DNA from: Alistipes sp. Zagget8 | GTDB lineage: Bacteria > Bacteroidota > Bacteroidia > Bacteroidales > Rikenellaceae | NCBI GenBank assembly: GCA_001941065.1 | Contig: MSHJ01000005.1 | Span: forward strand, 310,001-374,000 | DNA: 64,000 bases | Reading direction: 5' to 3' | Shown: positions 38,917 to 63,396 of the stretch, one piece after another | Layout of the letters: each line of letters starts with the position of its first letter | Numbering within the stretch: position 1 is the stretch's first letter | Translations under genes and position numbers: made by a program | Notes under the pieces: model-generated | The model's database searches: none | What the model saw: the letters and a program-made list of their open reading frames with translations, nothing else | Told to the model about the DNA's origin: nothing

Positions 38917-40116
38917 CTATTTTTTCAGGTGTCCGGCGCAGGCCATCGCTTCGAGGCACATGCGGCTGTTGTGGTAGGGGCATTTCCAGAATCCTGCCTT
39001 GTCGTCCGTGCGGTTTACGGAGCCGTCTTCGCGGATGCTCCAGAACCATTCGCCGCCGGCCGTGTCGACCAGATGGGTGCGGATGTATTCCCAGGTCTTT
39101 TCGGCCTGGGCGAGGGCTTCGCCGATGCCGTGGTACGTGTAGAGCCACATCAGCCCCACGACGCATTCGGCCTGCACCCACCAATGGCGCTCGCGGTCGA
39201 GGCTTCCGTCGGCACGGTGTTCGTAAATCAGGCTTCCGTCGGATTGGTAGCCTTCGAGCGCTGCGTCGGCGATCCGGCGGCTGTGGCGTTTCACGCGCTC
39301 TGTGAGTTCGTCCTTGCCTATGGCCTGCGCCGCTTCGAGCAGCAGCCACGAAGCCTCGATGTCGTGACCGTAGGAATAGACATTGCGGCTCGTCTCGTGC
39401 CAGTCGTTGTCGAAAAAGAGTCCCAAATGGTGCGTCACAGATGATTCTATCTTGTCCAGGAAGATGCCGACGAGGTTTTCGAGTCGTTCGCGCAGCCGGG
39501 CGTCGGGCCACACGCGGTAGAGATTCGTATAGGGTTCCAGGATGTGCAGGTGGGTGTTCATCGTTTTGGGCGTGTTGTCGTCCTTGTCGCTCAGGCGCAT
39601 ATCCTCGATGGGGCTCCAGTCGCGTGCCGCGGCCTCGATATACCCGTTGCGGGCGTTGTCGAAAGCGTGCCGCTCGATGGTTTCGAACAGCCGGACAGCC
39701 TGTTCAAGGGCTTCGTGGTCGCCCGTGGCCCGGTGGTATTCGCTCAGTCCGTAGAGGGCGAATCCGAGGGCGTAGAACTGCTTGCGGGTGTCGAGCGGCG
39801 TACCGTCCGCGGTGACCTCCCAGTAGACGCCGCCGTACTGCTCGTCGTAAAAATGTCCCAGCAGCCACTCCTTGGCCCGTGTGGCACATTCGAGGTATTC
39901 CGGGCGTCCCAGTGCGCGGTAGGCCGCCGAGAAGGTCCAGAGAATGCGGCTGTAAAGGATTGCGCCGCGCGGCGCTGCGGCGTCGAGGTTGTTTTCGCCC
40001 GTGATGCGGCCGTGAAATCCGCCCCGGCCATCCTGCATACGGTCGGTCCAGAAGGGGAGGATCACCTCCTGCAGATGCCGCTCCAGTTCGGCGGCCAGAC
40101 GATCGAGTCGTTCCAT
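38917..40116 (-). CDS. AGE-family epimerase, probable cellobiose 2-epimerase
   Basis: 399 residues of the N-acylglucosamine 2-epimerase (alpha/alpha barrel) family. Probable catalytic His residues are in MNTHLHILEPYTNLYRVW, in YGHDIEASWLLLEAA and in KCPYHNSRMCLEA, matching cellobiose 2-epimerases. In the mannan route this enzyme turns beta-1,4-mannobiose into mannosylglucose, the substrate of GH130 phosphorylase, which is encoded at 60892-62070. The ATG at 40116 lies eight bases after the transporter stop; the frame continues upstream within that gene and should be ignored. Confidence 0.88.
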   Translation of the reverse strand: MERLDRLAAELERHLQEVILPFWTDRMQDGRGGFHGRITGENNLDAAAPRGAILYSRILWTFSAAYRALGRPEYLECATRAKEWLLGHFYDEQYGGVYWEVTADGTPLDTRKQFYALGFALYGLSEYHRATGDHEALEQAVRLFETIERHAFDNARNGYIEAAARDWSPIEDMRLSDKDDNTPKTMNTHLHILEPYTNLYRVWPDARLRERLENLVGIFLDKIESSVTHHLGLFFDNDWHETSRNVYSYGHDIEASWLLLEAAQAIGKDELTERVKRHSRRIADAALEGYQSDGSLIYEHRADGSLDRERHWWVQAECVVGLMWLYTYHGIGEALAQAEKTWEYIRTHLVDTAGGEWFWSIREDGSVNRTDDKAGFWKCPYHNSRMCLEAMACAGHLKK

Positions 40117-40124
40117 ATAACGTG

Positions 40125-41510
40125 TCAGTTTTTCGCTTTGCGGCGTGCCTCCAGTTCGTCCGAGACGGTTTTCATGGTCTTTTCGTCGAGCGGGTAGAAC
40201 CAGATGAAGACGACCGAGAGGACCGTTCCCACGGCCGGGAGCCAGCTCAGCATCATGCGGATGCCGTGGATGGCCTCGGCCGACTGCACGGCGTTGGCCT
40301 GAAATCCGTAGCGGGCCAGCAGCCAGCCCGTCAGGGCACCTCCGAGCGTCCATCCGAATTTCTGCGACATCGACGACGACGAGAAAATCAGTCCCGTGGC
40401 ACGCCGTCCGGTTTTCCATTCCGAATAGTCGGCGATGTCGGCGTACATCGACCACAGCAGCGGGAAGATGCTGCCCGCGCAGATGCTGATGAGCGTTTGC
40501 AGCAGGAAGATCGCCACCAGCTGGTCGGGACGCAGCGAGTAGAACACCGCGCTGAGCAGCGTTGCGGCAAGCATGGCTCCCAGGTAAATGCGTTTCTTGC
40601 CGAATCGGTCGGCGAGGGGAGCGGCCAGCGCCACGCCGATCATGTTCGAAGCCTGTCCGACCATGAGGTAGAGCGCCGAGAGGGTGAAGAATCCGCCGAT
40701 GGCCGCGGTCTGGTCCTGCTGGACGTAGTATTTGAAATAGTAGATCGTGGCTCCGTCGCGGATCGAGTTGAAGATCAGCGCCGCGATGCCTGCGCCCAGG
40801 AGAATCCACCACGGGCGGTTGTGGAGAAACAGGTCCTTCAGATCGTTTCGCACGGACCCCTGCCTGTCGGCGACGGGCTGTACGCGTTCGCGGACTCCGC
40901 GGAAGCATAACAGCAGCAGGACGGTGCAGAGAATGCCGATGGCGGCGACGGTCAGCGCCCAGCCGCGGGCCTCGGAGTGTACGCCGCCCAGTTCCGAGAA
41001 ACTGCGTACGAGGGGTTCTACCAGCGCCAGGGCGATGAAACTGCCGGCGTAGGCAAAGAACATGCGGTAGGAGGAGAGGGCGTTGCGGTCGCGGCCGTCG
41101 GACGAGATGACGCCCAGCAGCGAGGCATAGGGTACGTTGACGGCCGAATAGACCATCATCATCGAGGTGTAGGTGACGTAGGCGTACAACAGCCGCATGG
41201 CGGGCGTCCAGGTCATCGGGGGCACGAGGAACGTCAGCACGCCCAGCACCGAGAAGGGTACGGCTCCGAAGAGAATCCACGGACGGAATTTGCCCCAGCG
41301 GCTGTGGGTGCGGTCGGCGATCATGCCGAAAATCGGGTCGTTGACCGAATCCCAGATGCGGGTGACGAGGAACATGGTGCCGACGGCCGCGGGGGCCAGT
41401 CCGAAGACGTCGGTGTAGAAATAGAGCAGGTACATCCCGAATATTTTCCAGAACATCGAGGATGCCATGTCGCCGAATCCGTAGGAAATTTTCTCTTTGA
41501 TTCCGATCAT
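40125..41510 (-). CDS. GPH-family glycoside:cation symporter (ManP-like)
   Basis: 461 residues, 12 predicted helices. The start has the GPH signature KISYGFGDMASSMFWKIFGMYLLYFYTDVFGL and the conserved RIWDSVNDPIFGMIADRTHSRWGKFRPWIL. GPH transporters take up disaccharides or glycosides with Na+ or H+. Operonic with a cellobiose 2-epimerase-like gene, as in the B. fragilis mannan cluster, it is best read as a mannobiose (manno-oligosaccharide) importer. A -7 element lies 27 bases upstream of its ATG. Confidence 0.9.
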   Translation of the reverse strand: MIGIKEKISYGFGDMASSMFWKIFGMYLLYFYTDVFGLAPAAVGTMFLVTRIWDSVNDPIFGMIADRTHSRWGKFRPWILFGAVPFSVLGVLTFLVPPMTWTPAMRLLYAYVTYTSMMMVYSAVNVPYASLLGVISSDGRDRNALSSYRMFFAYAGSFIALALVEPLVRSFSELGGVHSEARGWALTVAAIGILCTVLLLLCFRGVRERVQPVADRQGSVRNDLKDLFLHNRPWWILLGAGIAALIFNSIRDGATIYYFKYYVQQDQTAAIGGFFTLSALYLMVGQASNMIGVALAAPLADRFGKKRIYLGAMLAATLLSAVFYSLRPDQLVAIFLLQTLISICAGSIFPLLWSMYADIADYSEWKTGRRATGLIFSSSSMSQKFGWTLGGALTGWLLARYGFQANAVQSAEAIHGIRMMLSWLPAVGTVLSVVFIWFYPLDEKTMKTVSDELEARRKAKN

Positions 41511-41801
41511 GTGTTTTCAGGGAGTTTAGGTTAGTGCAAAGATACGCGATAGGGGGACGTTCGAATAATACAATGAGAACTTTTTATGATGCTTTTTTAA
41601 CATGCCGGGACGCCCCTTGCGTGCGGATTTCTCCGCAAACCGCCAATCAGGCTTGTCCGGCCCCGATTTTTGCCGGCCGGACTGATGCTATTTTAACCAT
41701 TCCTTCCATTCTGTTAGCCAATCGGGGCCCGGGGTTCGGAAATTCGGTTCTGGCATTCTATTTTTGTTCCGTAACCGATTCACATAATCCAAACCGACCT
41801 G
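41511..41801. other. Divergent intergenic region of symporter and fusion genes
   Basis: Holds a -7 element on each strand: TATCTTTG on minus at 41537-41544 and TATTTTTG on plus at 41759-41766. Two perfect hairpins lie between them: TGCGGA-TTTC-TCCGCA (41622-41637) and GTCCGGCC / GGCCGGAC (41655-41682). These could be regulator sites or a short transcript. No ORF is apparent. Confidence 0.5.
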
Positions 41802-44435
41802 ATGATGAATAAGTATCTCGTTTCGTTTCTGCTGCTCTGCACGACCGTTTCCGGCGCATTTGCCGGGGCGCCCGTGCGTCCCCGCATCCTGCCCGGAACC
41901 GCTGCGGCCACCGAGGCCGTGGTTTTTTGGGAGCTTCCCGCCGATTACAAGGCCATGAAGCACTATGTCGTCCGCGTCGACGGCCGCCGCGCCGGGACCA
42001 CCGACCACAACAACCTGCGTATCACGGGTCTGCGTCCCGCGACGAACTATCGTGTGCAGGTCGCCGCCGTCGATGCCGCGGGCCGCGAACACAAGGCCCG
42101 GACCGTCGAACTCCGGACCAACCTCGCCCCGCGCATTTTCGACGTGCGCGATTACGGGGCCAAAGGCGATGGCGAAACCCTCGACACCAAAGCCATCCAG
42201 CAGGCCATCGACGCCTGCACGCCCGGCGGCGAGGTTTACGTTCCCGCGGGCGACTACCTCACGGGGGCGCTCTTTATCTGCAAGAGCGACATCAGCCTGC
42301 ACCTGGACGAAGGAGCCACGCTGCGGGCCGTGAACAACCTCGGGCACTTCCCGATGGTGAAAAATATCTACGAAGGATGGGTGAAGGACGTTTTCGCCAG
42401 CGTCCTGAACATCGGCCGCCTCTACGGCGACCGCTACCGGAACATCCGCGTCTACGGCGGCGGCACCATCGACAACCAGGGCAGCCTGCTGGCCGACCAG
42501 CAGACCCGCACCGTGGGCCGCATGGCCCGTTCGCACGGCCTGCCCGTCATCCGCTGCGACAACGTGGCTTTCGACAACGTGACCGTCACCAACCCCTGCA
42601 CCTGGAACGTCCATCCGCTGTTGTGCGACGGGTTCACCACCTACGGATGCCGGCTCGTCTCCTCGGGCTTCGGACTGAGCAACGCCGACGGCTGGGACCC
42701 CGACTCCTCGTCGGAGTGTTACCTGCTCGAATCGGTGCTCGACGGGCAGGACGACAATATCGCCGTCAAGTCGGTGGTCTATCCCGCCGAAAACGGTGAA
42801 AAGATCCTGAAACCCGCCGAAAATATCTTCATCAGCCATTGCCGCTTCCTGCGCGGCGGGGGGCTGGTCGTCGGGGCCGAGGTTCCGGCCGGGGCCCGCA
42901 ACGTCTGGTTCACGGACTGTGTGGTGGAGGGCAGCGACCGCGGGTTCCACGTTTGCAGCCGTCCGTTCGGCACCCGCCCCGTCGAAGGCATTCATTTCCG
43001 CGACATCGAGGTGAAGAACACCGGTTGCTGGGGCATCAACGTCACGGTCTGGTACTGGGTGCCGAGTTATCTGCCCGGCGTTTACGGAGCTGACGAACTG
43101 CTCAAAGTCCGCGACGTGACTTTCGAGAACATCCGTATCGACCGCGCCGACGGCAATCCGATTCAGGTGCTGGGCGTCGCCGAACAGCCGATGGAGAACA
43201 TCCTGTTCCGTAATGTGACCGTTGCCGAGAGCCAGTACGACGTGCTGCTGCGCAATGTCCGCGGCGTGAAATTCGAGAACGTGCAGGTCGGCGAGCGCTA
43301 CTGGGTGCTGGACAACGCCGAGGGAGTCGAACGCGATGCGCTGACCTCTGCACCCAAAACGATGAACTATCCCCACCGGCTGGCCGACCCCGCCGCCACC
43401 TACCGCACGAAGGCGCTCTATGATAACCTGCACAAGGTGGCCCGCAGCGGACGCTTCCTCTTCGGGGCGCAGGATGCCACGGCGTCGGGATTCGGCTGGT
43501 GCGACGACTCGGGGCGCAGCGACATCGAGCGTATCTCGGGCAGGAAACCGGCCTTTTACAGCTGGGATTTCATGGACATCGTCGACGGGGAAGGCAACCT
43601 GAAACCCGAAGCCGAAAAGGTACGCCGCCTCACGTGCCAGGCTTTCTACGAGGGCGGGGTGATCTCCTATTGCTGGCATGCGCCGAATCCGGTCACGGGA
43701 GGCAGTTTCTACGACACCTCGGAGCGTGTCGTGGAGAAAATCCTGCCCGGAGGCTCCCACCACGCGAAATTCACGGCCATGCTCGACCGCATCGCCGCCT
43801 ACAACCGCACGCTCGTCGGTAAGAACGGCGAACAGATTCCGGTGATCTTCCGTCCGTGGCATGAATTCGACGGCGACTGGTTCTGGTGGGGCCGCAACAA
43901 CTGCACGCCCGAGGAGCTGAAGGCGCTCTACCGCTTTACGGTGACCTACCTGCGCGACACATGCGGGGTGCACAATTTCCTCTACTGCTTTTCGCCCGAC
44001 ATCAATTTCACCTCGGCGGAAGAGTACCTGCGCAGCTATCCCGGCGATGAATATGTCGATGTCGTGGCGATGGACAATTACTGGCTCTACCGCATCGAGG
44101 AGAAGAACCTCGACCATGCGCACCTGCGGCTGAAAGTGATTTCCGACTATGCGAAATCCGCGGGCAAGATCGCCGCCCTTTCCGAAACCGGGCAGGGGGC
44201 CATCGACGATCCCGAATGGTTCACCGGACGGTTGCTGAAATCGATCTACGGCTACCCGGGCGAGCCCGTCGAACTGGCTTACGTCGCCGTGTGGCGCAAC
44301 AGCACGCTGGGATTCTTCACACCCTACGAGGGGCATCCCGCGACGAAGGATTTCCTACGGTTCCTCGACGACGAACGGGTGGTCACGGCATGGCCCTACG
44401 ACTGGCTGGGAATGTATTACCACCTGACCGACTGA
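41802..44435 (+). CDS. Secreted GH28-GH26 fusion with FN3-like N-terminus
   Basis: 877 residues. Signal peptide (1-20), FN3-like domain (about 25-108), GH28-type beta helix (about 110-540) and a complete GH26 barrel (about 545-877). GH26 is intact: acid/base E688 in RPWHEFDGDWFWWG and nucleophile E795 in ALSETG, so endo-beta-mannanase activity is likely. The GH28 part opens IFDVRDYGAKGDGETLDTKAIQQAID and keeps NADGWD (N294, D296) and D317-D318 in GQDDN. The usual RGHGG reads RGGG (351-354), so the His is gone. The usual RGIRIKS reads RGFHVCS (380-386). It may be a changed-specificity enzyme or a binding module. It is divergent from the mannobiose symporter gene. Confidence 0.9.
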   Translation: MMNKYLVSFLLLCTTVSGAFAGAPVRPRILPGTAAATEAVVFWELPADYKAMKHYVVRVDGRRAGTTDHNNLRITGLRPATNYRVQVAAVDAAGREHKARTVELRTNLAPRIFDVRDYGAKGDGETLDTKAIQQAIDACTPGGEVYVPAGDYLTGALFICKSDISLHLDEGATLRAVNNLGHFPMVKNIYEGWVKDVFASVLNIGRLYGDRYRNIRVYGGGTIDNQGSLLADQQTRTVGRMARSHGLPVIRCDNVAFDNVTVTNPCTWNVHPLLCDGFTTYGCRLVSSGFGLSNADGWDPDSSSECYLLESVLDGQDDNIAVKSVVYPAENGEKILKPAENIFISHCRFLRGGGLVVGAEVPAGARNVWFTDCVVEGSDRGFHVCSRPFGTRPVEGIHFRDIEVKNTGCWGINVTVWYWVPSYLPGVYGADELLKVRDVTFENIRIDRADGNPIQVLGVAEQPMENILFRNVTVAESQYDVLLRNVRGVKFENVQVGERYWVLDNAEGVERDALTSAPKTMNYPHRLADPAATYRTKALYDNLHKVARSGRFLFGAQDATASGFGWCDDSGRSDIERISGRKPAFYSWDFMDIVDGEGNLKPEAEKVRRLTCQAFYEGGVISYCWHAPNPVTGGSFYDTSERVVEKILPGGSHHAKFTAMLDRIAAYNRTLVGKNGEQIPVIFRPWHEFDGDWFWWGRNNCTPEELKALYRFTVTYLRDTCGVHNFLYCFSPDINFTSAEEYLRSYPGDEYVDVVAMDNYWLYRIEEKNLDHAHLRLKVISDYAKSAGKIAALSETGQGAIDDPEWFTGRLLKSIYGYPGEPVELAYVAVWRNSTLGFFTPYEGHPATKDFLRFLDDERVVTAWPYDWLGMYYHLTD

Positions 44436-47241: not shown

Positions 47242-47389
47242 CAGTCGTTTTTGCCGGTCGGGTGTATGCCCGGGTCCGGCGGCGCTCCCTGCGGGGAGCT
47301 TATCTGCGACCGGGAGGGAGAGTCAACCCCGCCCGGCCAATGCGGGCATCCGCACGGGGCGGATGCCTCGGAACCGCGTTCGGCCGCGA
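47242..47389. other. Gap with two hairpins inside fimbrial operon
   Basis: GCTCCC-TGCG-GGGAGC (47284-47299) and GCATCCGC-ACGGG-GCGGATGC (47346-47366). No T tract follows on the minus strand. They may lower expression of the large downstream subunit or protect the upstream mRNA. Confidence 0.45.
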
Positions 47390-48739: not shown

Positions 48740-48784
48740 AACAAAAAATTTGATGAATGGTTCAGTTGCATATTTTGGATCGAA

Positions 48785-51671: not shown

Positions 51672-52574
51672 TCAGGCGATCACCTGTTTCTTGTGGTACA
51701 TCTCGCGGAATTCGCGCGGCGTGCATCCTTTCTTGCGGCGGAAGATGCGGTTGAAATTCGACATGTTGTTGTAGCCGCATTCATAGCAGATTTCGGCAAT
51801 GGTCTTGTTGGTGTCGACCAGCAGACGCGCCACCTTGCCGATGCGGATGTCGATGAGGTATTCGGTGAAGCTCTTGCCGGTATGCTGGCTGAAGAAGCGG
51901 CTGAAGGCCACTTCGCTCATGTTGGCCAGTTCGGCCACCTCGCGCAGCGTGATGTCGCGGGCGAAATTCTTTTGCAGATAGGCGTCGGCCATGCGGATGC
52001 GTCGGCTCTGGATGCTGTTTTCGGTATGCGCGAAGGCCGTGCTGGCCAGCGTGCGGGCATCGTCGGCGAGCGAGAGCTCGTAGAGCAGCGTGAGGAAGGT
52101 CGTCACCAGGTAGAATCCCTTCTGCTCGCAGGTCAGCGAGTTGAGCAGCGGCCGGACCTTGATGATCGTCGAGAGCGGGAACGTCAGTCCTTTGCTGCCG
52201 TGCTGGAGCATGGTGTGGATCGAGTGGAACTGGTTTTTGGAGAGGAGCTTTTCCGAAAGCCAGTCGTCGGAGAACTGGATCGTGATTTCGCGAATATTTC
52301 CCGGCGTGAGCCGGTGGTTCTGCCAGCCGTGCTTCAGGTTGTCGTTCGAGATGAGCACCAACTCGTAGTCGCCGATCTCCTCGATCGAGTCGCCCACGAC
52401 GCGCTGGGCCCCCGCGGCGTTCTCGATGTAGTTGATCTCGAACTCCTTGTGGGTGTGTATCGGGTAGTTGAACTCGGCCTTCTTGCGCTCGATCACGTAG
52501 ATGCAGTCCCCTTCCGACAGGGGTGTGATCTCGTGCAGTACGGGGCCTTTGCTGTTGGGTGTCATGGCATTCAT
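51672..52574 (-). CDS. AraC-family transcriptional regulator
   Basis: 300 residues. The N-terminal cupin-like sensor (about 20-110) has FNYPIHTHKEFEINYIENAAG. The C-terminal double helix-turn-helix (about 195-298) has ITLREVAELANMSEVAFSRFFSQHTGKSFTEYLIDIRIGKVARLL and TIAEICYECGYNNMSNFNRIFRRKKGCTPREFR. This sensor type often detects small sugars. It lies downstream of the mannan operon and upstream of the fimbrial leader on the same strand, so either could be its target. Start could also be the Met nine bases on. Confidence 0.9.
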   Translation of the reverse strand: MNAMTPNSKGPVLHEITPLSEGDCIYVIERKKAEFNYPIHTHKEFEINYIENAAGAQRVVGDSIEEIGDYELVLISNDNLKHGWQNHRLTPGNIREITIQFSDDWLSEKLLSKNQFHSIHTMLQHGSKGLTFPLSTIIKVRPLLNSLTCEQKGFYLVTTFLTLLYELSLADDARTLASTAFAHTENSIQSRRIRMADAYLQKNFARDITLREVAELANMSEVAFSRFFSQHTGKSFTEYLIDIRIGKVARLLVDTNKTIAEICYECGYNNMSNFNRIFRRKKGCTPREFREMYHKKQVIA

Positions 52575-52691: not shown

Positions 52692-53975
52692 TTATTCGGC
52701 CAGCAGCTTCGCGTAGCGTGCGATGACGGCGAGGGTCGAGGTGTCGGCCGCGAAGACCGAGTTCAGCCCCGGCTGCTCCTGTGCGGGGTCGCCCGTGTAG
52801 TCATCGCCCCGCTGCCAGTAAACATGGTCTGCCGCGGGCTGCGCCACGCCGCCCCAGCTCCAGAAATTGCATCCGGCGAAGGGACCTCCTGCCGCACGGT
52901 TCTCCTGGATGTAGGAGAAGACGGCTTCGTAGTAGCGGTCGCGGCCCGTGGTGGGGCTTCCGGGGGTGAAGACGAACCCGTCGCGCGGAAATCCGAACTC
53001 CTCGAGCACCACGGGTTTGCGGATGCGGCGAGCGATTTCCAGGTGTTCGTCGATATAGGTCCGGGTGTTGGCGATGGCTTGTTCGAGGCGTTCGCCGCCC
53101 AGCTCTTCGGGGGTCACCCAGCCCCAGTTCAGTGGCCAGATATGGATGGTCATGTAGTCCACGTTGGGGTCGGCGTGCAGCTGCTCGGCCAGCGCGAGGT
53201 CGCCCTCGCAGCCCGCCTTGCCTTCGCTGCCGGTCGAGACGAGGTGGTTCGCATCGAGGCTCTTGATGAGGGCCGCAATTTCGGACATCCACACCCGGAA
53301 CGGCTCCTTGTTTTCGGAGCTGAAAGCGCGGGGTTCGTTGCCGATCTGCCACGACATGATCGTCGGGTCGTCTGTGTAAGGCTGGCCCGTGTAGCGGTTG
53401 GTGCGGGTCACCATGTCGCGCACATAATCCGCGAAAAGCGCCTGCGCCTGCGGATTCCGGGCGTATTGGTTCACGTAGGCCGAGAAGGCGTTCCAGCCGT
53501 CGATGGCCGGGATCGGGGCCTTGCCGGCTCCGGCCCACTCGAGGTACTGCGAGTAGCCGCCGGACCACTCCCACGAGTTGTTGAGGTAGAGCACGGCCTT
53601 CATGCCGCGCTTGCCCATCTCGGCGAGCAGGAAATCGAGGCCGTCGAGGATCGCGTCGTTGTATTGTCCCGGGGCCTTCTGCAGTGTGGGTTCGATGCGT
53701 GAGGGCACGCCGTCGGGACCGTCGCCGCCGACCAGGATGCGGAGGTTGTCGATGCCGGTGGCGCTGAGGATGTCCAGCTCGCGCAGGAGGCGTTCGCGGT
53801 CGCCGCCTTCGGCCTGCGACCCGAGGATCGCTCCGTACCAGAAATTCGCGCCGACATAACTGTACGGCTTGCCGTCGGCCATGAAGCGGCCCTCCTCGAC
53901 CGTTACGAATCGGCTTTTCGGCGAACAGGCCGCCGCGATGGCTGCGGCCAGCAGCAGGATGAGTATGCGTTTCAT
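52692..53975 (-). CDS. GH5 (subfamily 7-like) endo-beta-mannanase, lipoprotein
   Basis: 427 residues. Lipoprotein signal MKRILILLLAAAIAAAC, then the GH5_7 start VEEGRFMADGKPYSYVGANFWYGAILG. Acid/base Glu is in MSWQIGNEPR (near 212) and nucleophile Glu in PVVLEEFGFPRDG (near 325). Aromatic subsite residues such as NNSWEWSGGYSQYLEW are typical of mannanases. It cuts beta-1,4-mannan at the cell surface or in the periplasm. Last gene of the leftward locus, four bases after the GH28-fold gene. Confidence 0.9.
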   Translation of the reverse strand: MKRILILLLAAAIAAACSPKSRFVTVEEGRFMADGKPYSYVGANFWYGAILGSQAEGGDRERLLRELDILSATGIDNLRILVGGDGPDGVPSRIEPTLQKAPGQYNDAILDGLDFLLAEMGKRGMKAVLYLNNSWEWSGGYSQYLEWAGAGKAPIPAIDGWNAFSAYVNQYARNPQAQALFADYVRDMVTRTNRYTGQPYTDDPTIMSWQIGNEPRAFSSENKEPFRVWMSEIAALIKSLDANHLVSTGSEGKAGCEGDLALAEQLHADPNVDYMTIHIWPLNWGWVTPEELGGERLEQAIANTRTYIDEHLEIARRIRKPVVLEEFGFPRDGFVFTPGSPTTGRDRYYEAVFSYIQENRAAGGPFAGCNFWSWGGVAQPAADHVYWQRGDDYTGDPAQEQPGLNSVFAADTSTLAVIARYAKLLAE

Positions 53976-53979
53976 ACGG

Positions 53980-55506
53980 TTAGCGTTTCATCTGGTTGGT
54001 GACTCCGGTGCAGTTGCGCTGAACGAGCAGTCCGTTGCCGGGAGCTGCGGGCGAGGGCACTGCGGCGATCTCCCCGAGCGTCAGTCCGCGCACGCCGTGG
54101 GCCTCGACCGGGGCTGTGAACCACGGTTTCGTGACTCCTTCGCCCCACGACATCGTGCCGTTGGTCATGCGCACGTTGCGCACATTCTCGAGGTAGACGA
54201 TCGGAGTGTCCGAGGCGAAAAACTCCTTGTCTGCGACCGTCGTGGGTCGGAAATCGAAATTGCCGCCGGCGACGGAGTCGAGTGCGCCCTGGCTGAGCCG
54301 GAAATCGAAATTGGTGAAATCGACGTTCTCGATCGTGCATTCGGGCGAAGCGTAGACGATCACCGAGTTCTCGCCGTCGCACGCGATGTTCGAGAACCGG
54401 AGGTTGCGGATGGCGCCCGGCACGCTTTCGCGTCCGCGGATGGCCGTGATCTTGATCGGCTCGCCGTTGCCCCACCAGTCGCCGGTGTGCAGGCGGGTGT
54501 GGATGTTGAAATTCGAGAAATTGACGTTTTCGAGTCCTGCGTAGTCGCGGATGCAGATACCGATGCCGCAGTTGGAGTCGAAGATGGTGATGTTCGAGAA
54601 ATTGTAGTCCGACATCACGTTCTGGTCCCAGCCGCCGATGCGGATGGCGCTCGACCGCGAGCGGAGCACGCAGTTCGTGAAATTGATGTTGCGCGAGGGG
54701 CGTGTGATGCGCTGGAAGCCCGGGTCGCCGAAATGCCAGTCGTAACCCGCCACCACCACGGCGTCGTCGCCGCACGAGATGTAGCAGTCCGAGACGTTGA
54801 CGTTGCTCGACGAGATGATGTCCAGTCCGTCGCTGTTGGGGATCACGAGGTTGTTGTCGATTTTCAGGTTGTGCACCGTGACGCGGTCGCAGTGGACGAT
54901 CAGGAAGCACCAGTAGGGCGAATCCACGCATTTGAAGTCGTGCAGTTCGACATCGGTGCAGTTGCTGAAGACGATCATCTGGTGGAAGCGGTCCTTCGGG
55001 TAGAGGGGGCCGTCGCCGATGCCTTCGGCTACCTTGCGCAGCCCCTTGCCCTGCCGCACGTAGTTGAGTGCGGGGCCTGCGATGACCTTGGCGCTGTCGG
55101 CGTGCATGAATTCCATGCCCTGCCCGAAAATGACGCCGTGGCCCGTGATCGAGACGTTCGAAGCATTCTCGGTATAGAAAACGCCCGCCAGTTCGTCGTT
55201 GTGCTTCTGATACTGCGTGAGGTCGGTCGTGGCCACGAGCCGTGCGCCGGTCTCCATGCGGAATTCGACGTTCGAACGCAGGTTGAGCGTCCCCACGAGG
55301 TAGTCGCCCTTGGGAACGTAGACCACGCCGCCGCCCTCTTCGGCGCAGCGGTCGATGGCCTGCTGTATTTTATCCGTCGTGAGACTGCGGCCGTCGTTGC
55401 GGGCGCCGAATTTCGCGACGTTGTAGATGCCGGCCGTTTCGCCGCCGCACCCTGCCAGGAAGAGTGCGGCCAGCGCGGCGCAGACGGTGATTATGCTGTT
55501 TTTCAT
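53980..55506 (-). CDS. GH28-fold (parallel beta-helix) lipoprotein
   Basis: 508 residues. Lipoprotein signal MKNSIITVCAALAALFLAGC, then the pectinase-fold opening IYNVAKFGARNDGRSLTTDKIQQAID and PKGDYLVGTL. It keeps two acidic motifs, NSDGLD (near 223-228) and CGDDAVV (near 243). The position of the usual RGHGG reads RSRSS, and the RIK region reads GIGIC. A standard polygalacturonase mechanism is therefore doubtful. In a mannan locus it may cleave or bind a different linkage. It lies between GH31 and GH5_7 genes with gaps of 18 and 4 bases. Confidence 0.82.
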   Translation of the reverse strand: MKNSIITVCAALAALFLAGCGGETAGIYNVAKFGARNDGRSLTTDKIQQAIDRCAEEGGGVVYVPKGDYLVGTLNLRSNVEFRMETGARLVATTDLTQYQKHNDELAGVFYTENASNVSITGHGVIFGQGMEFMHADSAKVIAGPALNYVRQGKGLRKVAEGIGDGPLYPKDRFHQMIVFSNCTDVELHDFKCVDSPYWCFLIVHCDRVTVHNLKIDNNLVIPNSDGLDIISSSNVNVSDCYISCGDDAVVVAGYDWHFGDPGFQRITRPSRNINFTNCVLRSRSSAIRIGGWDQNVMSDYNFSNITIFDSNCGIGICIRDYAGLENVNFSNFNIHTRLHTGDWWGNGEPIKITAIRGRESVPGAIRNLRFSNIACDGENSVIVYASPECTIENVDFTNFDFRLSQGALDSVAGGNFDFRPTTVADKEFFASDTPIVYLENVRNVRMTNGTMSWGEGVTKPWFTAPVEAHGVRGLTLGEIAAVPSPAAPGNGLLVQRNCTGVTNQMKR

Positions 55507-55524: not shown

Positions 55525-57792
55525 TTAGCGGATTTCGATGGTGACGGGCTGCGTCACGGCAAAGGTGCCGCAGCGGGCCGTGAGCAGGCCGTCGTTCCAG
55601 CTCCAGGTGTCGCAGGCGCGGCCGTTGACCGTGACTTGTGCGGGTTTCGGCGTACCGACGATCTCCACGTTGTAGGTGCGTTCGGCGACCGCTTCGGGAT
55701 AACTGCCGCGGGGCGCCTCGACCGTGAAGCGCTGTGTGCCGCCGGAACAGTCGTAGGTGAGCAGCGTGCGGCGGTTCAGCCCCTTCTCGTAGTCGAAATT
55801 CTCGCCCTCGTCTTCGTAGAGGTCGAACGTCGTGCGGCAGTTTCCGGCGGGGGCGTAGGCCCGCAGAGTCAGCGTCGTGAGCGGAGCGCTGACATAGTCG
55901 CCGGGTTCGGTCATCGGGATGAGCGAGCCGGCACGCACGTAGAGCGGGAAACTCTGAATGTCCGACGTGCGGGAGATTTCACGCCCGCCCGCAAGGCGCT
56001 CGTTGGTGAAATAGTCGTACCACGCGCCTTCGGGGAGCCAGAGCGAACGCTCGGTCACCCCGTGCTGTCCGTCGCCCGAAGGGCGCATGGCCGGAGCCGC
56101 GAGAAACGCTTCGCCGAAGAGGTACTGGTCGAAACGGTAGGCTTCGTCCCGGTCGGGCCAGTCGAGGTACATGCCGCGGCAGAGGGGCACACCCGTGTCG
56201 TGGGCTTCACGCATCAGCGTGTAGATGTAGGGGTTGAGCGCCGCACGCAGGCGGATCGAGCTGCGGATCGATTCCAGCACGGTCGGTCCCCACTCCCACG
56301 GCAGGCGCGAACCGCCGTCCCAGCCGTCGGGACAGGTCCTTGCGGGGTGCCAGAAGAGGTCTTTCTTGGCGTGGAAGCGCATCAGCGGCGAGAAGGCTCC
56401 GAGCTGGGCCCAGCGGGCGAACATTTCGCCGTCGGGGATGTATCCGTCCGTGCCCTGGGGCATATAGCCGCCGATGTCGTGCGACCACCATACGCCGTTG
56501 TTGCCGCCCTTGAGCGTCACCTCCACCGTGCGGCGCATCGTGGCCCACGTGGCGTAGGTGTCGCCCGAGAATCCGGCGGGGTAGCGGTGGTTGCAGAGCG
56601 TGTAGTTCTGCTGGCGGTTCAACACCAGCGGGCGTTTGCCCGTGCCTTCGGTGAGGTAGCGGTGGTAGAGCTCCGCCGAGTAGATCGAGTTGGCGCCGTC
56701 GACCCAGTGGAAATCGAACCCGTCGTCGATCATCTCGGCCAGGTAGAGGTCGTAGAACGACTTGAAATGACGCTCGTTGCGCGTGTCGTACTGCACGACG
56801 CGGATTTCGGGTTCGAACGAGGGCCCGTCGACGATCGACTGTTCGTAGTCGAGTCCCGCGCGGCGGCAGAATTCCCGCACCTTGGGGTCGTCCTTGTAGA
56901 TGCAGCCCGAGTGGTGGTTGAAGCCGGTCTTGATGTGCTGCGACTCGGCCCAGTCCTGGAATCCGCGCATGTCGGGGAAATTCTTCGTGTCGTACTTATA
57001 GCCGTACCAGTGGTCCACGTGCCAGCACATGTCGAGGATCACGGCGTCGAGCGGAATCCGCTCCTTGCGGAATCCGGCGACGATCGCCTTGTAATCCTCG
57101 TCGGTGTAATCCCTCCAGCGGCTGTAAATCAGTCCCAGCGACCATTTGGGGAACATCGGGATTTCGCCGGCGACCGAGAAGAAATCGGTGAAGGCCCGGC
57201 GGTAGTCCTTGCCGTAGCACAGCACGTAGAGCTCCTCGTAGGGCTGCCCCTCGCGGAAGAGGTTCAGCTGGTCTTGGGTGTGCTTGAGCACGGTGTATCC
57301 GCGGCGGCTCAGGATGCCGTCCTGCGGGGTGGGGCGTACGTCGTGCGACGAGGTGATGTCGTTCTGTTCGGAGTAGCATTTCTCGCCGTCGCAGTTGTCC
57401 AGCGCCCCGACCACGCCGCCGAGGTTTTGCGTATCCTCGGCGCCCAGTTCGTCGACCGACGCGATGCCTTCGACGCGGATGCCGCCCGTGGTGAGGGGCT
57501 GCGCCGGGTCGTAGACTATTGTGATTTCGCCGGTCGAGATGCGGTAGGCCGCACCCTCCCTGGTGATGTCGAACGTTACGGGAGCCGTGGGCAGCCCGGT
57601 GATGCCCAGGTCGGTGCGCACGGGTGCGAAGCGGTAATTGTCACCTTCGCGCACGGAGAACATCGTGGGCGAGAGTATTTCGATCCGCGCCTTGCGGAAC
57701 GATACGGCGTTTCCGGCGCGGCGGTATTCTTTGGCTGTGACCGCCGTCAGGGCCATCAGCAGCGCAGCTGTCAGTAAGGTTTTCAGTTTCAT
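55525..57792 (-). CDS. GH31 alpha-glycosidase, exported
   Basis: 755 residues. Signal peptide (1-20), N-terminal beta sandwich (about 25-205), and a TIM barrel (from about 210) with FPKWSLGLIYSRWRDYTDEDY and DAVILDMCWHVDHWYGYKYD. The nucleophile Asp is in DFHWVDGANS (near 367) and the acid/base Asp in YPAGFSGDTYATW (near 409). The family includes alpha-glucosidases, xylosidases and galactosidases. In this locus it probably removes an alpha-linked side sugar, for example galactose from galactomannan. Precise specificity is open. Confidence 0.9.
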   Translation of the reverse strand: MKLKTLLTAALLMALTAVTAKEYRRAGNAVSFRKARIEILSPTMFSVREGDNYRFAPVRTDLGITGLPTAPVTFDITREGAAYRISTGEITIVYDPAQPLTTGGIRVEGIASVDELGAEDTQNLGGVVGALDNCDGEKCYSEQNDITSSHDVRPTPQDGILSRRGYTVLKHTQDQLNLFREGQPYEELYVLCYGKDYRRAFTDFFSVAGEIPMFPKWSLGLIYSRWRDYTDEDYKAIVAGFRKERIPLDAVILDMCWHVDHWYGYKYDTKNFPDMRGFQDWAESQHIKTGFNHHSGCIYKDDPKVREFCRRAGLDYEQSIVDGPSFEPEIRVVQYDTRNERHFKSFYDLYLAEMIDDGFDFHWVDGANSIYSAELYHRYLTEGTGKRPLVLNRQQNYTLCNHRYPAGFSGDTYATWATMRRTVEVTLKGGNNGVWWSHDIGGYMPQGTDGYIPDGEMFARWAQLGAFSPLMRFHAKKDLFWHPARTCPDGWDGGSRLPWEWGPTVLESIRSSIRLRAALNPYIYTLMREAHDTGVPLCRGMYLDWPDRDEAYRFDQYLFGEAFLAAPAMRPSGDGQHGVTERSLWLPEGAWYDYFTNERLAGGREISRTSDIQSFPLYVRAGSLIPMTEPGDYVSAPLTTLTLRAYAPAGNCRTTFDLYEDEGENFDYEKGLNRRTLLTYDCSGGTQRFTVEAPRGSYPEAVAERTYNVEIVGTPKPAQVTVNGRACDTWSWNDGLLTARCGTFAVTQPVTIEIR

Positions 57793-57801: not shown

Positions 57802-59781
57802 TTATCGGGTCGGGAAAATATGGATCGCAGCGCCTCCGCTGCCGGCCAGCGGGAGCGTCAGACTGTCGCCTTTGCGCAGGCTGACGGTGCGTTTTTCGAG
57901 CCGGTTGGGGTCGTCGGCGGTTTCGTCGGTGTCGGTGTATATCTCGGCCGTGTAGGCGCCGTCGCCGAGGAAATCCGCACGGAACTCCACCTCGCGGGGC
58001 GTCGAGTTGTTGATGGCGCCCACCCACCAGTCGGCGCCCTTGCGGCGTGCCACGCAGGCGTATTCCATCACCGAAGCGGCCGGCACGACCGTCTCGTCCC
58101 ACGTCGTCGGCACCTCGCGGATGAATTCGAATCCGGGCTGCCCCTCATACGCCGGCGGAGTGTCGCAGACCATGCCGAGGTAGCTTTCCAGCACGACATA
58201 CATGCCCAGCATGTGGCAGCGGGTGTTCGTGACCCACGGATTGGAGTAGCGGATTTGCAGTTTCTCTTTCGGCACGGCGCGGAAGCCTCCGAGGTGGTAG
58301 TCCGTGGCTCCGGCCAGCAGGCGTGTGAAGGGAATGGCGATGTCGAGGTCAGCGCCCATGTCCAGCGACCACTTGTAGCACTCGTAGTTGCGCGTGCCCT
58401 CGCGGGTGAACTCGTTGGGATAGGTGCGGTTGAGTCCCGAGGGTTTCGACGAACCGTGGAACTGCACGAAGATCTTGTGGGCGGCGGATTTGGCTAAAAT
58501 CTCTTCCTGGATACGAATCATTTCCTGGTCGTCGCGGTCCATGAAATCGACCATCATGCCCTTGACTCCCCATTCCTCGAAGCGGGCCAGCGCCTCGTCC
58601 AGCTGGGCGTAGAGTATCTTCCAGTTGACCCAGAGGTGGATGCCCACGCCCTGTTCCGCGGCGTATTTGCAGATGTAGGGCATGTCGAGCGTCCGGAGCG
58701 GCTTCATGATGTCGGCTTCGGAGCTCGGGAATTCGAAACTCATGTTCGGGTCGTAGTACCACGGCTGTTCGGCATAGCCGTAAATCGAGTGGAAATCGAG
58801 TCCGGAGCGTGCCGCGAAATCGATGTAGTATTTGTTCGTCGGGAAATTGTTGCCCGCGAGGAACGTGGTGTCGGGGGTGACACAACCGTTCCACCACGTG
58901 AAGGTGGTCTTTCCGGGGCGTATCCACGTCGTGTCGGCCACGGCGCACGGGTCGTTGAGGTTCGTGAGCAGGTTCGAGGCGATGAGGCGTCCGGCGTCGG
59001 GGCCGATCATCATCACGCGCCACGGCGAACGGTGGGGCAGCGACGCACGCACCTTTTCGCGCTGCTGTCCCGGCAGGGGCGAGAGCTTTCCGCGCAGCGA
59101 TCCCTGCTCTTTGGAAAGGTAGAGGCCTGCGTAGTCGCGGACGGCGGCTTCGGTGACGGCCATCACCGTCCCGTCGGGGTAAGTGAACAGCGTCGGCATC
59201 TCCATCAGCTTGCCTTCGTCGAGGTGTTCGTAGTCGGTCTGCGTGTAGAATCCCTCGTGCGAGGTGGTGTACGACCTCAGGTACATCGTCAGCGCCTTGG
59301 GATTGCCTGCCAGGTCGAAGGTCGTCAGCTCGTCGTGCATCACATAGGAGTTCCAGCCCTCCTGCTCGGGGAAGACGTAGCGGAAGGCCGCGCCGTCGTT
59401 GAACGTCCGCACGACGAGATCGATCCGGCGGTGGGGCGCAGCCTCTTCCGTCAGCGGGATCACCGCTTCGGTGTAGGGCTCCTCGACGTGCGAGGACTTG
59501 CCTGTGATAAGGTCGTAGCGCTCCACGCCGCTGCGGCGTTCGATGCGTCCGGTGCGGAGTCCGCGGCCGAATTCGCCGCTGTCGAAGACGAAGCCTATGC
59601 GGCCTCCGTCGACAAGCTGCGTTTTGCCGTAGAATACGTCGTATTCAGGCAGCGATTTCCGGTCCACGCGGACCGTCATGCGAATCTGCCCGTCGGGCGA
59701 TTTCACGCTTATGGTTTTCTGTGCGTAACCCGCGCCGCCCAGAAGCAGCGCTGCGGCTATGGTGAGAATTCGTTTCATCAT
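57802..59781 (-). CDS. GH97 glycosidase, probable alpha-galactosidase type
   Basis: 659 residues. Signal peptide (MMKRILTIAAALLLGGAGYAQ), N-terminal GH97 beta sandwich (about 25-280), catalytic barrel (about 290-550) and C-terminal sheet. VKGMMVDFMDRDDQ (near 412) fits the retaining group of GH97, in which an Asp is nucleophile, as in BtGal97a, rather than the inverting SusB group. An alpha-galactosidase suits galactomannan debranching. The ATG at 59781 overlaps the upstream GH26 stop as ATGA, so translation is coupled. Confidence 0.9.
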   Translation of the reverse strand: MMKRILTIAAALLLGGAGYAQKTISVKSPDGQIRMTVRVDRKSLPEYDVFYGKTQLVDGGRIGFVFDSGEFGRGLRTGRIERRSGVERYDLITGKSSHVEEPYTEAVIPLTEEAAPHRRIDLVVRTFNDGAAFRYVFPEQEGWNSYVMHDELTTFDLAGNPKALTMYLRSYTTSHEGFYTQTDYEHLDEGKLMEMPTLFTYPDGTVMAVTEAAVRDYAGLYLSKEQGSLRGKLSPLPGQQREKVRASLPHRSPWRVMMIGPDAGRLIASNLLTNLNDPCAVADTTWIRPGKTTFTWWNGCVTPDTTFLAGNNFPTNKYYIDFAARSGLDFHSIYGYAEQPWYYDPNMSFEFPSSEADIMKPLRTLDMPYICKYAAEQGVGIHLWVNWKILYAQLDEALARFEEWGVKGMMVDFMDRDDQEMIRIQEEILAKSAAHKIFVQFHGSSKPSGLNRTYPNEFTREGTRNYECYKWSLDMGADLDIAIPFTRLLAGATDYHLGGFRAVPKEKLQIRYSNPWVTNTRCHMLGMYVVLESYLGMVCDTPPAYEGQPGFEFIREVPTTWDETVVPAASVMEYACVARRKGADWWVGAINNSTPREVEFRADFLGDGAYTAEIYTDTDETADDPNRLEKRTVSLRKGDSLTLPLAGSGGAAIHIFPTR

Positions 59782-60884
59782 CGTATGTCTTGGTTCATCA
59801 GAATTCGGTCGTCGGCAATGAAGGCCTTGAAATCGCCTTCGGCCGCATGGCCTTTGTAGGGGAGGTAGAAATGGCCGGGTTTGTCGGGTTCCCAGGCATT
59901 GCGCCAGAAGAGTATCCACGCCATGCCCGAAGGTTCGATGACCGGAGCCACGACGCGGGTGAAATAATCCGTCACGGGAATCCCTTCCATGCCGGTCTCG
60001 GCCATCACGGGCAGTTTGCCCGAGCGTGCGGCGTAGTCGGCGACGATTTGCAGGTTGCGCTGCATATTGGCCATGTAGTGCTCCGTGGCGGCCGCATCCG
60101 AGCCGAAATGGTAGAGGTCGAAGCCGACCACGTCCACCCATTCGTCGCCGGGATAGCGCTCGAGATAACCGGCTTCGTCCTCGACGTCGGTCGGGGAGTA
60201 GCCGTAGAGGACGTTGTGTACGCCGCGCGTGTCGCGCAGATGGCCGACGGTCATCCGCCACAATGCCTTGTATTCGTCGGGCGTTGCGAAATCGGCGCCC
60301 CACCAGAACCATGAACGGGTCTGCTCGTGGTAGAGACGCAACACGACGGGAATCGCCCCGCCCTGTGCATCTTTCAGCGACAGGAGGAAATCCGCCACGC
60401 GGTCCAGTTGCGCGAGGTATTCGTCGTGATGCGATCCGCCCGGCAGGATGGATGCGACCACGTCGTTGCGCGAGCAGTCCCACGTCGAACCGCCGGTAAG
60501 GATGTTGTCGCCGTGCCAGCTGATGGTCGAGATGCCTCCGCGGGCCGCCGTTGCGGCGATTCCCCGGCGGATGTCGTCGAAATAGACCGAGTCGAGGCTG
60601 TACGGTGCGCCCAGTTCGACGTGGCCGATCTCCCAGCCGACGACTGCGGGGTAGTCGCTCGTCATGTCGTAAACGTCCGAAAATCCCGGTTCGTAACGCT
60701 GGTGTCCGTAGGCCAGGGCGTCCTGCTGTCCGAGCATGACGCCCCGGTCACGGAGTTCGAAAAGACGTTCGTAAAGGGCGCAGGCGGCTTTGTTCGCCTG
60801 CGGGTCCGAAGGACGGTGTTCCGGCCCGGAGCAGGCCGCAGTCAGCAGGGCGGTGCCCGCTGCGAGGGTCAGAAGATGTTTCAT
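59778..60884 (-). CDS. GH26 endo-beta-mannanase, lipoprotein
   Basis: 368 residues. Lipoprotein signal MKHLLTLAAGTALLTAAC, then a single GH26 barrel. Features are MLGQQDALAYGH, VVGWEIGHVELG, acid/base Glu in RLYHEQTRSWFWWG (near 187) and nucleophile Glu in PVMAETGMEG (near 295). It cuts mannan, often releasing mannobiose, which suits the phosphorylase gene upstream and the separate symporter/epimerase pair. It is a paralogue of the GH26 half of the fusion at 41802-44435. It follows the GH130 gene by seven bases. Confidence 0.92.
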   Translation of the reverse strand: MKHLLTLAAGTALLTAACSGPEHRPSDPQANKAACALYERLFELRDRGVMLGQQDALAYGHQRYEPGFSDVYDMTSDYPAVVGWEIGHVELGAPYSLDSVYFDDIRRGIAATAARGGISTISWHGDNILTGGSTWDCSRNDVVASILPGGSHHDEYLAQLDRVADFLLSLKDAQGGAIPVVLRLYHEQTRSWFWWGADFATPDEYKALWRMTVGHLRDTRGVHNVLYGYSPTDVEDEAGYLERYPGDEWVDVVGFDLYHFGSDAAATEHYMANMQRNLQIVADYAARSGKLPVMAETGMEGIPVTDYFTRVVAPVIEPSGMAWILFWRNAWEPDKPGHFYLPYKGHAAEGDFKAFIADDRILMNQDIR

Positions 60885-60891: not shown

Positions 60892-62070
60892 TTAGCGTTG
60901 TTTGAAAGGTTCGTTGCTGTCGATCAGCTTGCAGAGCGTTTCGACCGAGGCGGCGCTGCGGAAGCCGTCGGGCACCGTGTTGAAGCAATAGTCCAGCAGC
61001 CGGTCGACGGACGATACGGCTACGTGCATGCGGGTGTCGCACGAGGCGTAGTAGATCAGCACACGGCCGTCGGGATCGGCGATCCAGCCGTTGCTGAAGA
61101 GCACGTTCGAGACGTCGCCCACGCGCTCTCCGCTCAACGGGGCCATGAAATATCCGGCCGGTTCGGCGATGACCCGCGTGGGGTCGTCGAGCGCCGTGAC
61201 GTAGAGGTAGAGCACATAGCGCAGACCTGCGGCGCACATCCTCACGCCGTGGGCCAGGTGCAGCCATCCGCGCGGCGTGCGGATCGGGTGGGGGCCTTCG
61301 CCGTTCTTCATCTCCTTGACGGTGTGATAGTGGCGGCCGTTGATGATCTTCTGCTCGCCGACCTCGGCGCGGGTGATGTCGTCGATGAGCGCCCAGCCGA
61401 TGCCGCCACCGTTGCCGGCGTCGATGAAGCTGTCCTGCGGACGGGTGTAGAGCGCGTATTTACCGTCGACGAACTCCGGGTGGAGCACCACGTTGCGCTG
61501 CTGTCCGGGGCTTTTCAGGTCGGGGAGGCGTTCCCAGTGTTCGAGGTCCTTCGTGCGGGCGATGCCTGCGGAGGCGACCGCTGCCGAGAGGTCGTCCGGG
61601 GCCGTGAGGTCCTTGCGTTCGGTGCAGAAGATGCCGTAAATCCACCCGTCCTCGTGGGCCGTCAGGCGCATGTCGTAGACGTTCGTGTCGGGATCGCCGG
61701 TTTCGGGCATCCGGACCGGATATTTCCGGAACCTGAAATTGTCGATGCCGTTGGGGCTCTCGGCGATGGCGAAGAACGATTTGCGGTCGTTGCCTTCGAC
61801 GCGCACCGCCAGCACGTATTTGCCGTCGTGGAACATGGCCCCGGCGTTGAACGTGCCGTTGATGCCGAAACGTTCCATGCAGTAGGGGTTGCGTTCGGGC
61901 GAGAGGTCGTAGCGCCACTCCAGCGGCGTGTGGTCACGCGTCAGCACCGGAAATCTGTACCGTTCGTAAATCCCGTTTCCGGGCAGCAGAGGTTCGTTTT
62001 CACGCTCCAGAAGCCGGTCGTGCTCCTCGCGCAGGGCGTGTAAACGGTTGTCGAATAAAGTGTTCGTCAT
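60892..62070 (-). CDS. GH130 4-O-beta-mannosyl-glucose phosphorylase
   Basis: 392 residues, no signal peptide, so cytoplasmic. GH130 subfamily 1 features are [38 protein letters not shown], the catalytic Asp in YDMRLT (near 131), [22 protein letters not shown] and [19 protein letters not shown]. It phosphorolyses mannosylglucose to mannose-1-phosphate and glucose. Together with the epimerase (38917) and the symporter (40125) it completes the pathway described for Bacteroides fragilis. A terminator separates it from the upstream binding-protein gene. Confidence 0.93.
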
Positions 62071-62145: not shown

Positions 62146-63396
62146 CTATTTGGTTTCGATCTTCTTCACGAAACGGATGTTCCAGAGGTAGAACTCCATG
62201 TCGCCGGCGGTCTCGCGCTGTGCGGCGATCTTGAAATTGTTGTACTGGTCCGTATTGTTGTAAGGATCCGTTGCAATCTTGAGGCAGGTTTTCTGGCCGT
62301 TTTCCTCGAGCGGCGGGAAGAGGTCTGTCACCTCCAGCTGCACGGTCTGCCATTCGCCCATCGTGTTGAGCGCCACGCCGTTGTTCGAACTTGCGGGGTC
62401 CCACATATAGAACTTGCCGGCATCCTCGCTCTCGGCGGCACCCAACCGGATGTAGCGGGCCAGAGGCGTACCCGACGGGTTGTTGATCTCCATCTTCACA
62501 CACCATTTTTCGGGATTGGCCAGCAGGTCGGCGGCCGAGCTGTCGAGCCAGAAATGGGTGATCATGTAGTTTTCATAACCCCACGTGCCGGGGAAATTCT
62601 TTTTGATCCAGGTCACCCACTTGAACAGCGGCTGATAGTAGAACTCCTCGGGAGAGATGTCGTTCATCGACGTGATACCCGTGGCCCACCATCCGTTCAC
62701 CCAGGTGCGCTCGTCGTTGGTGAGGATCGGAATGCCCGGTTCGCGGAAGGGAATCTCGACGGGCGTCGTCAGTTCGGGGGTCTCGATGGTCAGGTACGAG
62801 GCCCTGTCGGTGGGCGTTCCGGCCGGAATTGCGACGCCGAACGACGTGGCGTTGCAGCCGATCATCTTGACAGGCTGTCCGTTGAAGGTCAGCTTGGCGT
62901 TGATCGAGTCGATCAGGTAGAGGTCGAAATCGCTGCCCACGACCTGCACCGTGTCGCGGTCGGCGGCGAAATCGTTCTTGAAGCCGTTGATGACCAGTTC
63001 GGGCAGCGTCACGTTCAGCGCGGCCGATACCTCGCCGCGTTTGGTGACGATGCGCAGCGTGTTGTTCACCTCTCCGGGGAGTTTGCGCGGCACGACCAGT
63101 TCGAGGCGGTGGCGTTTGGCGTAAACCTGCGTCAGGTCGAGTGAGAGGTCGTTGATCGTCACCGATTCGAGGTCGGTGAGGTTGTCGCCGAAGATGGTGA
63201 TCGACTGGTTGAGCGCCGCCGTCGTGATGACGGTCGACGTGTCGGCCGATGCGGCGATCTTGCGGATCGACGGGGCGCCGGTCGAGACGTTGTCCGGGTC
63301 CCAGCCTTCGTCGATGTTGACCACGTCGCTGCACGAGATTGCCGCACAGGCGGCCAGCACGGCGGCAGTCGTATAGGTTAACCACGTAAGTTTCAT
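62146..63396 (-). CDS. Surface glycan-binding lipoprotein (IPT/TIG plus C-terminal binding domain)
   Basis: 416 residues. Lipoprotein signal ending AACAAISC near residue 22. Two or more IPT/TIG-like Ig domains follow (about 35-215: ITTAALNQSITIFGDNLTDLESVTIND, VTLPELVINGFKNDF). The C-terminal sandwich (about 220-416) has WATGITSMNDISPEEFYYQPLFKW and FYLWNIRFVKKIETK, like SGBP proteins of Bacteroidetes. It is expected on the outer membrane, feeding the SusCD pair. Encoded directly after susD. Confidence 0.87.
   Translation of the reverse strand: MKLTWLTYTTAAVLAACAAISCSDVVNIDEGWDPDNVSTGAPSIRKIAASADTSTVITTAALNQSITIFGDNLTDLESVTINDLSLDLTQVYAKRHRLELVVPRKLPGEVNNTLRIVTKRGEVSAALNVTLPELVINGFKNDFAADRDTVQVVGSDFDLYLIDSINAKLTFNGQPVKMIGCNATSFGVAIPAGTPTDRASYLTIETPELTTPVEIPFREPGIPILTNDERTWVNGWWATGITSMNDISPEEFYYQPLFKWVTWIKKNFPGTWGYENYMITHFWLDSSAADLLANPEKWCVKMEINNPSGTPLARYIRLGAAESEDAGKFYMWDPASSNNGVALNTMGEWQTVQLEVTDLFPPLEENGQKTCLKIATDPYNNTDQYNNFKIAAQRETAGDMEFYLWNIRFVKKIETK

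Follow-up and report, generated by a model that had tools for sequence, protein, structure and literature searches.

A conserved fn3-GH28-GH26 fusion protein with an altered GH28 active site at a Bacteroidota beta-mannan locus

We identified a gene of Alistipes sp. Zagget8 whose single product joins a GH28 beta-helix to a GH26 mannanase, in a 64,000-nucleotide stretch of contig MSHJ01000005.1 (positions 310,001 to 374,000; hereafter the window). The architecture is real and conserved, and it lies in a locus of known kind. Its GH28 module keeps the catalytic acids of the family and lacks two motifs expected of a polygalacturonase; judging from the sequence, it probably remains enzymatically active on a changed target. 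Our preferred account, in which we have even confidence, is that the fusion is a two-enzyme protein, the GH28 half being a putative active alpha-glycosidase retargeted to trim the side chains of beta-mannan oligosaccharides for the adjoining GH26. The gene and its modules are as follows.

41802..44435, + strand: fn3-GH28-GH26 fusion gene, 877 aa, with a signal peptide in which no obvious lipobox is seen by eye
41871..42122, + strand: fn3 domain, about residues 24-107 (PF00041, 29.7 bits)
42132..43322, + strand: GH28 right-handed beta-helix, about residues 111-507
43380..44390, + strand: GH26 module, residues 527-863, with E688 and E795 intact

From the N- to the C-terminus, one chain carries the signal peptide, the fn3 domain, the GH28 beta-helix and the GH26 mannanase with both glutamates present. 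This agrees with an earlier note on this DNA, which had claimed GH28 and an intact GH26 in one polypeptide: the frame, the coordinates, E688 and E795 all check out. Four Pfam families match the fusion, each above its cut-off (fn3, PF12708, PF00295 for GH28 and PF02156 for GH26). The GH28 assignment combines a PF00295 score of 83.8 bits, against a gathering score of 22.9, with the right-handed beta-helix; the GH26 half has the TIM barrel and the acid/base and nucleophile glutamates of a beta-mannanase. In an AlphaFold2 model of the fusion (pLDDT 92.2, pTM 0.88), the GH28 fold was intact. The locus and the similarity to CjMan26C and BoMan26A suggest that the GH26 half releases mannobiose. An open frame of 882 aa also runs antisense over the fusion gene (41688-44336, - strand), as happens over several other window genes, and is put down to base composition.

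A search of a protein collection (7993 candidates scored) gave 104 matches at E <= 1e-10, of which 36 carry both GH28 and GH26, with identity as low as 47%. Residue counts given here refer to 36 fusion rows including P0001, with P0002 (99% identical, hence regarded as the same gene) and P0018 (a likely assembly chimera with a PDZ protein) left out. A quick tree of the GH28 half (67 rows) placed every fusion inside one 41-row set with an SH-aLRT of 100, within which the unfused P0039 and P0040 also fall; the contigs of P0039 and of the fusion P0036 are equally long. Both E688 and E795 of GH26 are kept in 36/36 fusion rows. Over the 36 rows, mean pairwise identity reached 0.586 in the GH28 half and 0.627 in the GH26 half, and the two were correlated (r 0.888). 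The scan of genome contigs covered 84,980 species, and the best 80 of at least 545 related stretches were kept as loci. Two of these were opened, in Bacteroides faecalis KCTC 15687 (L038) and Candidatus Cryptobacteroides avicola (L039), and both hold fusions, at 64-65% identity; the other 78, at 37% identity or less, are known from the listing alone. When 101 genomes (the own genome and 100 relatives) were searched with the whole protein, both halves were spanned, among the matches listed, in the own genome only, and the next-best match among those listed covered GH26 alone (E 6.9e-102). The viral contigs searched held no match to the fusion, and a library of open-licence PMC papers yielded none that names GH28-GH26.

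The residues that distinguish the GH28 half are the following.

42681..42689, + strand: N294-A295-D296, retained catalytic-site motif (N294 in 35/36 and D296 in 36/36 fusion rows)
42750..42755, + strand: D317-D318, retained catalytic aspartates (D317 in 35/36 and D318 in 36/36 fusion rows)
42852..42863, + strand: R351-G352-G353-G354, with Gly353 at the canonical GHG His position (Gly in 36/36 fusion rows)
42939..42959, + strand: R380-G-F-H383-V-C385-S, with His/Cys at the canonical Arg-x-Lys position (alignment)
43029..43058, + strand: conserved aromatic segment WGINVTVWYW, residues 410-419 (W417 in 36/36 rows, W410 in 35/36)

Both catalytic motifs of GH28, Asn-x-Asp and Asp-Asp, are present (N294, D296, D317, D318), and all four residues occur in 35/36 fusion rows, bearing out the retention of the acidic pairs that had been claimed. 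The fusion is not filed as a polygalacturonase because Gly353 replaces the His of Gly-His-Gly in every row. Arg-x-Lys is missing too, its place being taken by His383-x-Cys385. Across the 36 rows, position 383 is His in 23, Gln in eight, Met in three, Leu in one and Ser in one, with Arg in none; at position 385, 26 rows have Cys, eight Lys, one His and one Ala, which leaves 28/36 rows with both Arg and Lys gone. Immediately before the aspartate pair, position 316 is Gln in 28 rows and His in eight, and in the alignment of fusions the eight His316 rows are the same eight that retain Lys385, a coincidence that may reflect a single event on the tree. The change from RGHGG to RGGG at 351-354 is real, but the His had been described as seemingly deleted, and this part was wrong: the nearest GHG-bearing matches, P0041-P0045, align with the fusion without a gap there (FLRGGGLVVGAE versus FKRGHGISIGSE in P0041), so the His was substituted by Gly353. 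The reading of RGIRIKS as RGFHVCS at 380-386 was correct in residues and numbering. Relative to P0041-P0045, W410 sits in a seven-residue insert, and W417 lies in aligned columns.

Similar losses occur beyond the fusions. Among the 67 non-fusion matches (P0039-P0105, a set that includes P0039 and P0040 from inside the fusion clade and in which P0087, with THG, and the ambiguous P0098 are counted as having His), the His is missing from 28, of which 19 are without the Lys as well. One fusion, P0009, is the sole exception for N294, D317 and W410 among the 36 rows: it carries N294D, D317G and W410R, yet it keeps both GH26 glutamates, which indicates that GH28 function can be given up. P0009 represents a natural pseudoenzyme lineage, with a degenerating GH28 site beside an intact GH26 site, and offers a useful comparison.

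The changed positions suggest that the leaving-group site may have been rebuilt for a sugar other than galacturonate, a wording we keep conditional because subsite assignments differ. In the Stereum purpureum structure, Arg and Lys reportedly bind the carboxylate of the sugar on the leaving-group side. By its EC definition, rhamnogalacturonase has galacturonate at -1 and rhamnose at +1. In PMC8952511, rhamnose is placed at -1 for exo-rhamnogalacturonases, and subsites -1 and +1 include Arg256 and Lys258. That source also reports that a His mutant of Aspergillus niger endopolygalacturonase II, whose residue before the aspartate pair is Gln200, is almost without activity, and also that the absence of the His from rhamnogalacturonases, which are active GH28 enzymes, suggests that it has no direct catalytic part; in endo-rhamnogalacturonase, Gly220 stands at the His position, and Lys196, just before the first catalytic Asp, may play its role (PMC8952511). 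R256N and K258N dramatically reduced polygalacturonase catalysis (PMC10059216). The fusions show the endo-rhamnogalacturonase combination: the His position holds Gly, and the residue preceding the aspartate pair is polar or basic. Gln316 (His in the earlier-branching rows) may replace the lost His as proposed for Lys196. An endo-rhamnogalacturonase of the 1RMG type is like the fusion in having Gly at the His223 position and a different residue ahead of the first catalytic Asp (PMC8952511), and unlike it in its pectic substrate, in having Lys rather than Gln or His before the Asp, and in carrying no mannan module. The site had been called disabled or altered; altered is the word that holds, with the His, Arg and Lys positions changed, whereas disabled is unsupported as the main reading, rhamnogalacturonases also being without the His (PMC8952511).

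The mannan genes of the window genome, including two that lie past the window end, are listed here.

38917..40116, - strand: cellobiose/mannobiose 2-epimerase-like (NF041848, 359 bits against an equivalog cut-off of 800; the family also occurs in L038 and L039)
40125..41510, - strand: GPH-type sugar symporter, divergent from the fusion (TIGR00792, 412.9 bits; also adjoins the fusion in L038 and L039)
51672..52574, - strand: AraC-type regulator of the mannan locus (family search)
52692..53975, - strand: GH5 exo-beta-mannosidase-like (1uuq_A, Man5A, E 9e-104; 4lyp_A, exo-beta-1,4-mannosidase), with its own Pfam match absent at 0.001
53980..55506, - strand: second GH28 of the locus, without the GHG His and Arg-x-Lys (alignment)
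55525..57792, - strand: GH31 protein, its counterpart not among the ORFs listed in L126 (B. faecalis) or L127 (Ca. Cryptobacteroides)
57802..59769, - strand: GH97 protein (PF10566, 279.6 bits)
59778..60884, - strand: standalone GH26, 40% identical to the GH26 half of the fusion
60892..62070, - strand: GH130 phosphorylase (PF04041, 63 bits)
62146..63396, - strand: surface glycan-binding protein (SGBP_B_XBD; family search)
L118:1178-4381: SusC, past the window end, where the mannan locus continues
G000:C5:378808-380322 (L118:4808-6322): third GH28-type gene, just outside the window, divergent from SusC

The third GH28 is 58% identical to the one at 53980-55506 and is also without the His and Arg-x-Lys. 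The fusion occurs together with mannan genes in three genomes (window, B. faecalis and Ca. C. avicola), and the GH26, GH130, 2-epimerase, transporter and SusC of a Bacteroidota beta-mannan utilisation locus were all found in the window genome and in B. faecalis. There, a single stretch holds AraC, GH5-like, GH28, GH97, GH26, GH130, glycan-binding protein, SusD, SusC, GH28, epimerase, symporter and fusion genes; the calls for AraC, the first GH28, the glycan-binding protein and SusD come from their translations, and L126:10171-11451 is called GH5 from its resemblance to the window gene, its Pfam matches being weak GH2/GH42. The same genes are split over two contigs in Ca. C. avicola, where SusC was not seen; GH130 was identified by search, the epimerase and symporter by Pfam, and the rest (most of L127) from translations. 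All nine GH28 proteins examined in the three loci, three in each, keep N-x-D and D-D and are without the His and Arg-x-Lys. Motif loss alone is no marker of mannan loci, since four GH28 genes elsewhere in the window genome vary too: one has His, Arg and Lys, one Lys only, one His only (GHA) and one none. In the congener G013, a protein related to the second GH28, with 64% identity, is encoded beside GH5, epimerase, symporter and GH26 genes, and no fusion was found there. A mannan-type locus of another congener (G053, L129), with GH130-, symporter- and epimerase-like ORFs, has no GH28 among the listed ORFs of the stretch; loci of this type therefore do not always include GH28.

Other genes lie among these. 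Between the fusion and the mannan locus are lipoprotein-like genes at 44509-47241, 47390-48739 and 48785-49861 (- strand), in the same stretch as an outer-membrane-like gene at 49741-51006; by eye, 44509-51006 looks like a fimbrillin (Mfa-type) cluster. A DUF4932 protein at 37792-38862, between a pectinesterase and the 2-epimerase, shows a metalloprotease-like HExxH motif (HEFSH) by eye.

The arrangement of the locus suggests how the two halves might work together. The fusion would be periplasmic, because it has a signal peptide (by eye) without a lipobox, while the GH5-like protein, the GH28 at 53980 and the standalone GH26 start like lipoproteins (by eye). Oligosaccharides imported by the SusC system would reach the GH28 half, which would remove an alpha-linked sugar attached, on the leaving-group side, to a residue other than galacturonate, clearing a side group so that the fused GH26 could proceed and release mannobiose. 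The symporter would then import mannobiose, the 2-epimerase would convert it to mannosyl-glucose, and GH130 would phosphorolyse this, as in characterised Bacteroides loci, for which PMC13276840 describes periplasmic GH26 action yielding mannobiose, import, epimerisation and GH130 phosphorolysis. Eudicot beta-galactoglucomannan is a natural candidate substrate because of its alpha-galactosyl-type side chains, described as alpha-galactosyl and beta-Gal-(1,2)-alpha-Gal in PMC11662442 and PMC10735049. A narrower version, which we think doubtful, is that the GH28 fold serves as an inverting alpha-galactosidase that frees alpha-(1,6)-Gal or beta-Gal-(1,2)-alpha-Gal from mannosyl residues before the GH26 cut, the two other GH28 proteins of the locus belonging to the same non-pectic group. 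Among the fusions, P0024 speaks for mannan trimming, its chain carrying a third, C-terminal module 55% identical to the exo-mannosidase-like GH5 protein at 52692-53975. The conserved W410 and W417, the mannan genes common to three genomes, the matching losses in their nine GH28 proteins and the G013 locus were counted on the same side. Against it, the GH26 half is the less similar of the two in only 94 of 630 row pairs, P0009 has given up its GH28 site, the GH97 of the locus (and here also GH31) could already remove alpha-galactose, loss of the His and Lys is not special to mannan loci, as the 28 of 67 non-fusion rows without the His indicate, and the L129 locus lists no GH28 ORF.

The GH28 half might instead still be pectic, a rhamnogalacturonase- or galacturonidase-like enzyme that takes galacturonate off a neutral neighbour, in which case the fusion would open pectin-mannan contacts in the wall. 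Rhamnogalacturonases likewise have no His at this position, which Gly occupies in the endo-enzyme (PMC8952511); the NCBIfam models that score best, though all far below cut-off, are those of polygalacturonase PglA, galacturonidase BT4155 and rhamnogalacturonidase BT4153; and a galacturonate operon (UxaC, kinase, KDPG aldolase, transporter, Mannitol_dh-family reductase and altronate dehydratase) and a pectinesterase lie upstream in the window. We nevertheless find this reading unlikely, since Arg and Lys are both gone in most rows whereas five solved relatives among the matches listed keep the Lys of Arg-x-Lys, and since the neighbours shared by the three fusions are mannan genes and further GH28s. 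The galacturonate operon was not seen in the ORF list of about 40 kb around the B. faecalis fusion, nor in those covering 18 kb around the Ca. C. avicola fusion and 16 kb of a second contig, so the pectin link looks local to the window genome, and a pectic reading drawn from the flanking operon was set aside. The fusion had been placed between a galacturonate operon and a mannan locus, of which the mannan side is shared by three genomes and the operon was not seen in the stretches listed for the other two.

A second possibility, again an improbable one in our view, is that the GH28 half no longer catalyses anything and persists as a pseudoenzyme, serving the GH26 catalyst as a carbohydrate-binding platform. 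It has lost three canonical positions whose mutation strongly lowers polygalacturonase activity (PMC8952511 and PMC10059216), a point that equally counts against active mannan trimming; the conserved aromatics could bind glycan; and P0009 tolerates the loss of D317. A binding platform would have no need of the four catalytic-site residues kept in 35/36 rows, however, which weakens the dead-domain reading, and GH28 rhamnogalacturonases manage without the His (PMC8952511). That the GH28 half is almost as conserved as the GH26 half was counted for an active enzyme. Of the two options raised in the earlier note, a new specificity is thus the better, with catalytic residues kept and the fold intact, and a binding role is unsupported as the main reading. 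An artefact, with the His removed by a read error or two genes joined in assembly, is extremely improbable: nothing favours it for the window gene, the likely chimera being the database row P0018, and it is ruled out by the 36/104 matches that are GH28-GH26 chains and by the recurrence of the same residues in B. faecalis KCTC 15687. The read-level error that had been allowed for as a source of the changed motifs is excluded by Gly353 in all fusion rows.

Among the closest known systems, Yersinia enterocolitica exopolygalacturonase YeGH28 (2uve/2uvf) keeps GHG and Arg-x-Lys, has a long insert absent from the profile and has no GH26, and the solved GH26 chains of CjMan26C, Muricauda GH26C and BoMan26A, of 344-374 residues, have no GH28 module. 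The beta-mannan loci of B. ovatus, B. fragilis and B. cellulosilyticus resemble the window locus in their GH26s, GH130, epimerase, sugar transporter and SusC/D (PMC13276840); the term GH28 does not occur in the main text of that source, whereas the window locus has three GH28-type proteins, one of them fused to GH26.

GH28 is usually taken to mean pectin degradation. Here, three GH28-type proteins in a conserved mannan locus have lost the galacturonate-recognising residues and kept the catalytic acids, and the physical linkage of GH28 to GH26 makes the question of substrate directly testable. If the GH28 half does act on mannan side chains, GH28 would not be purely pectic, the substrate calls for such loci would have to change, and the fusion would be a ready-made debranching-plus-cutting enzyme for complex plant mannans.
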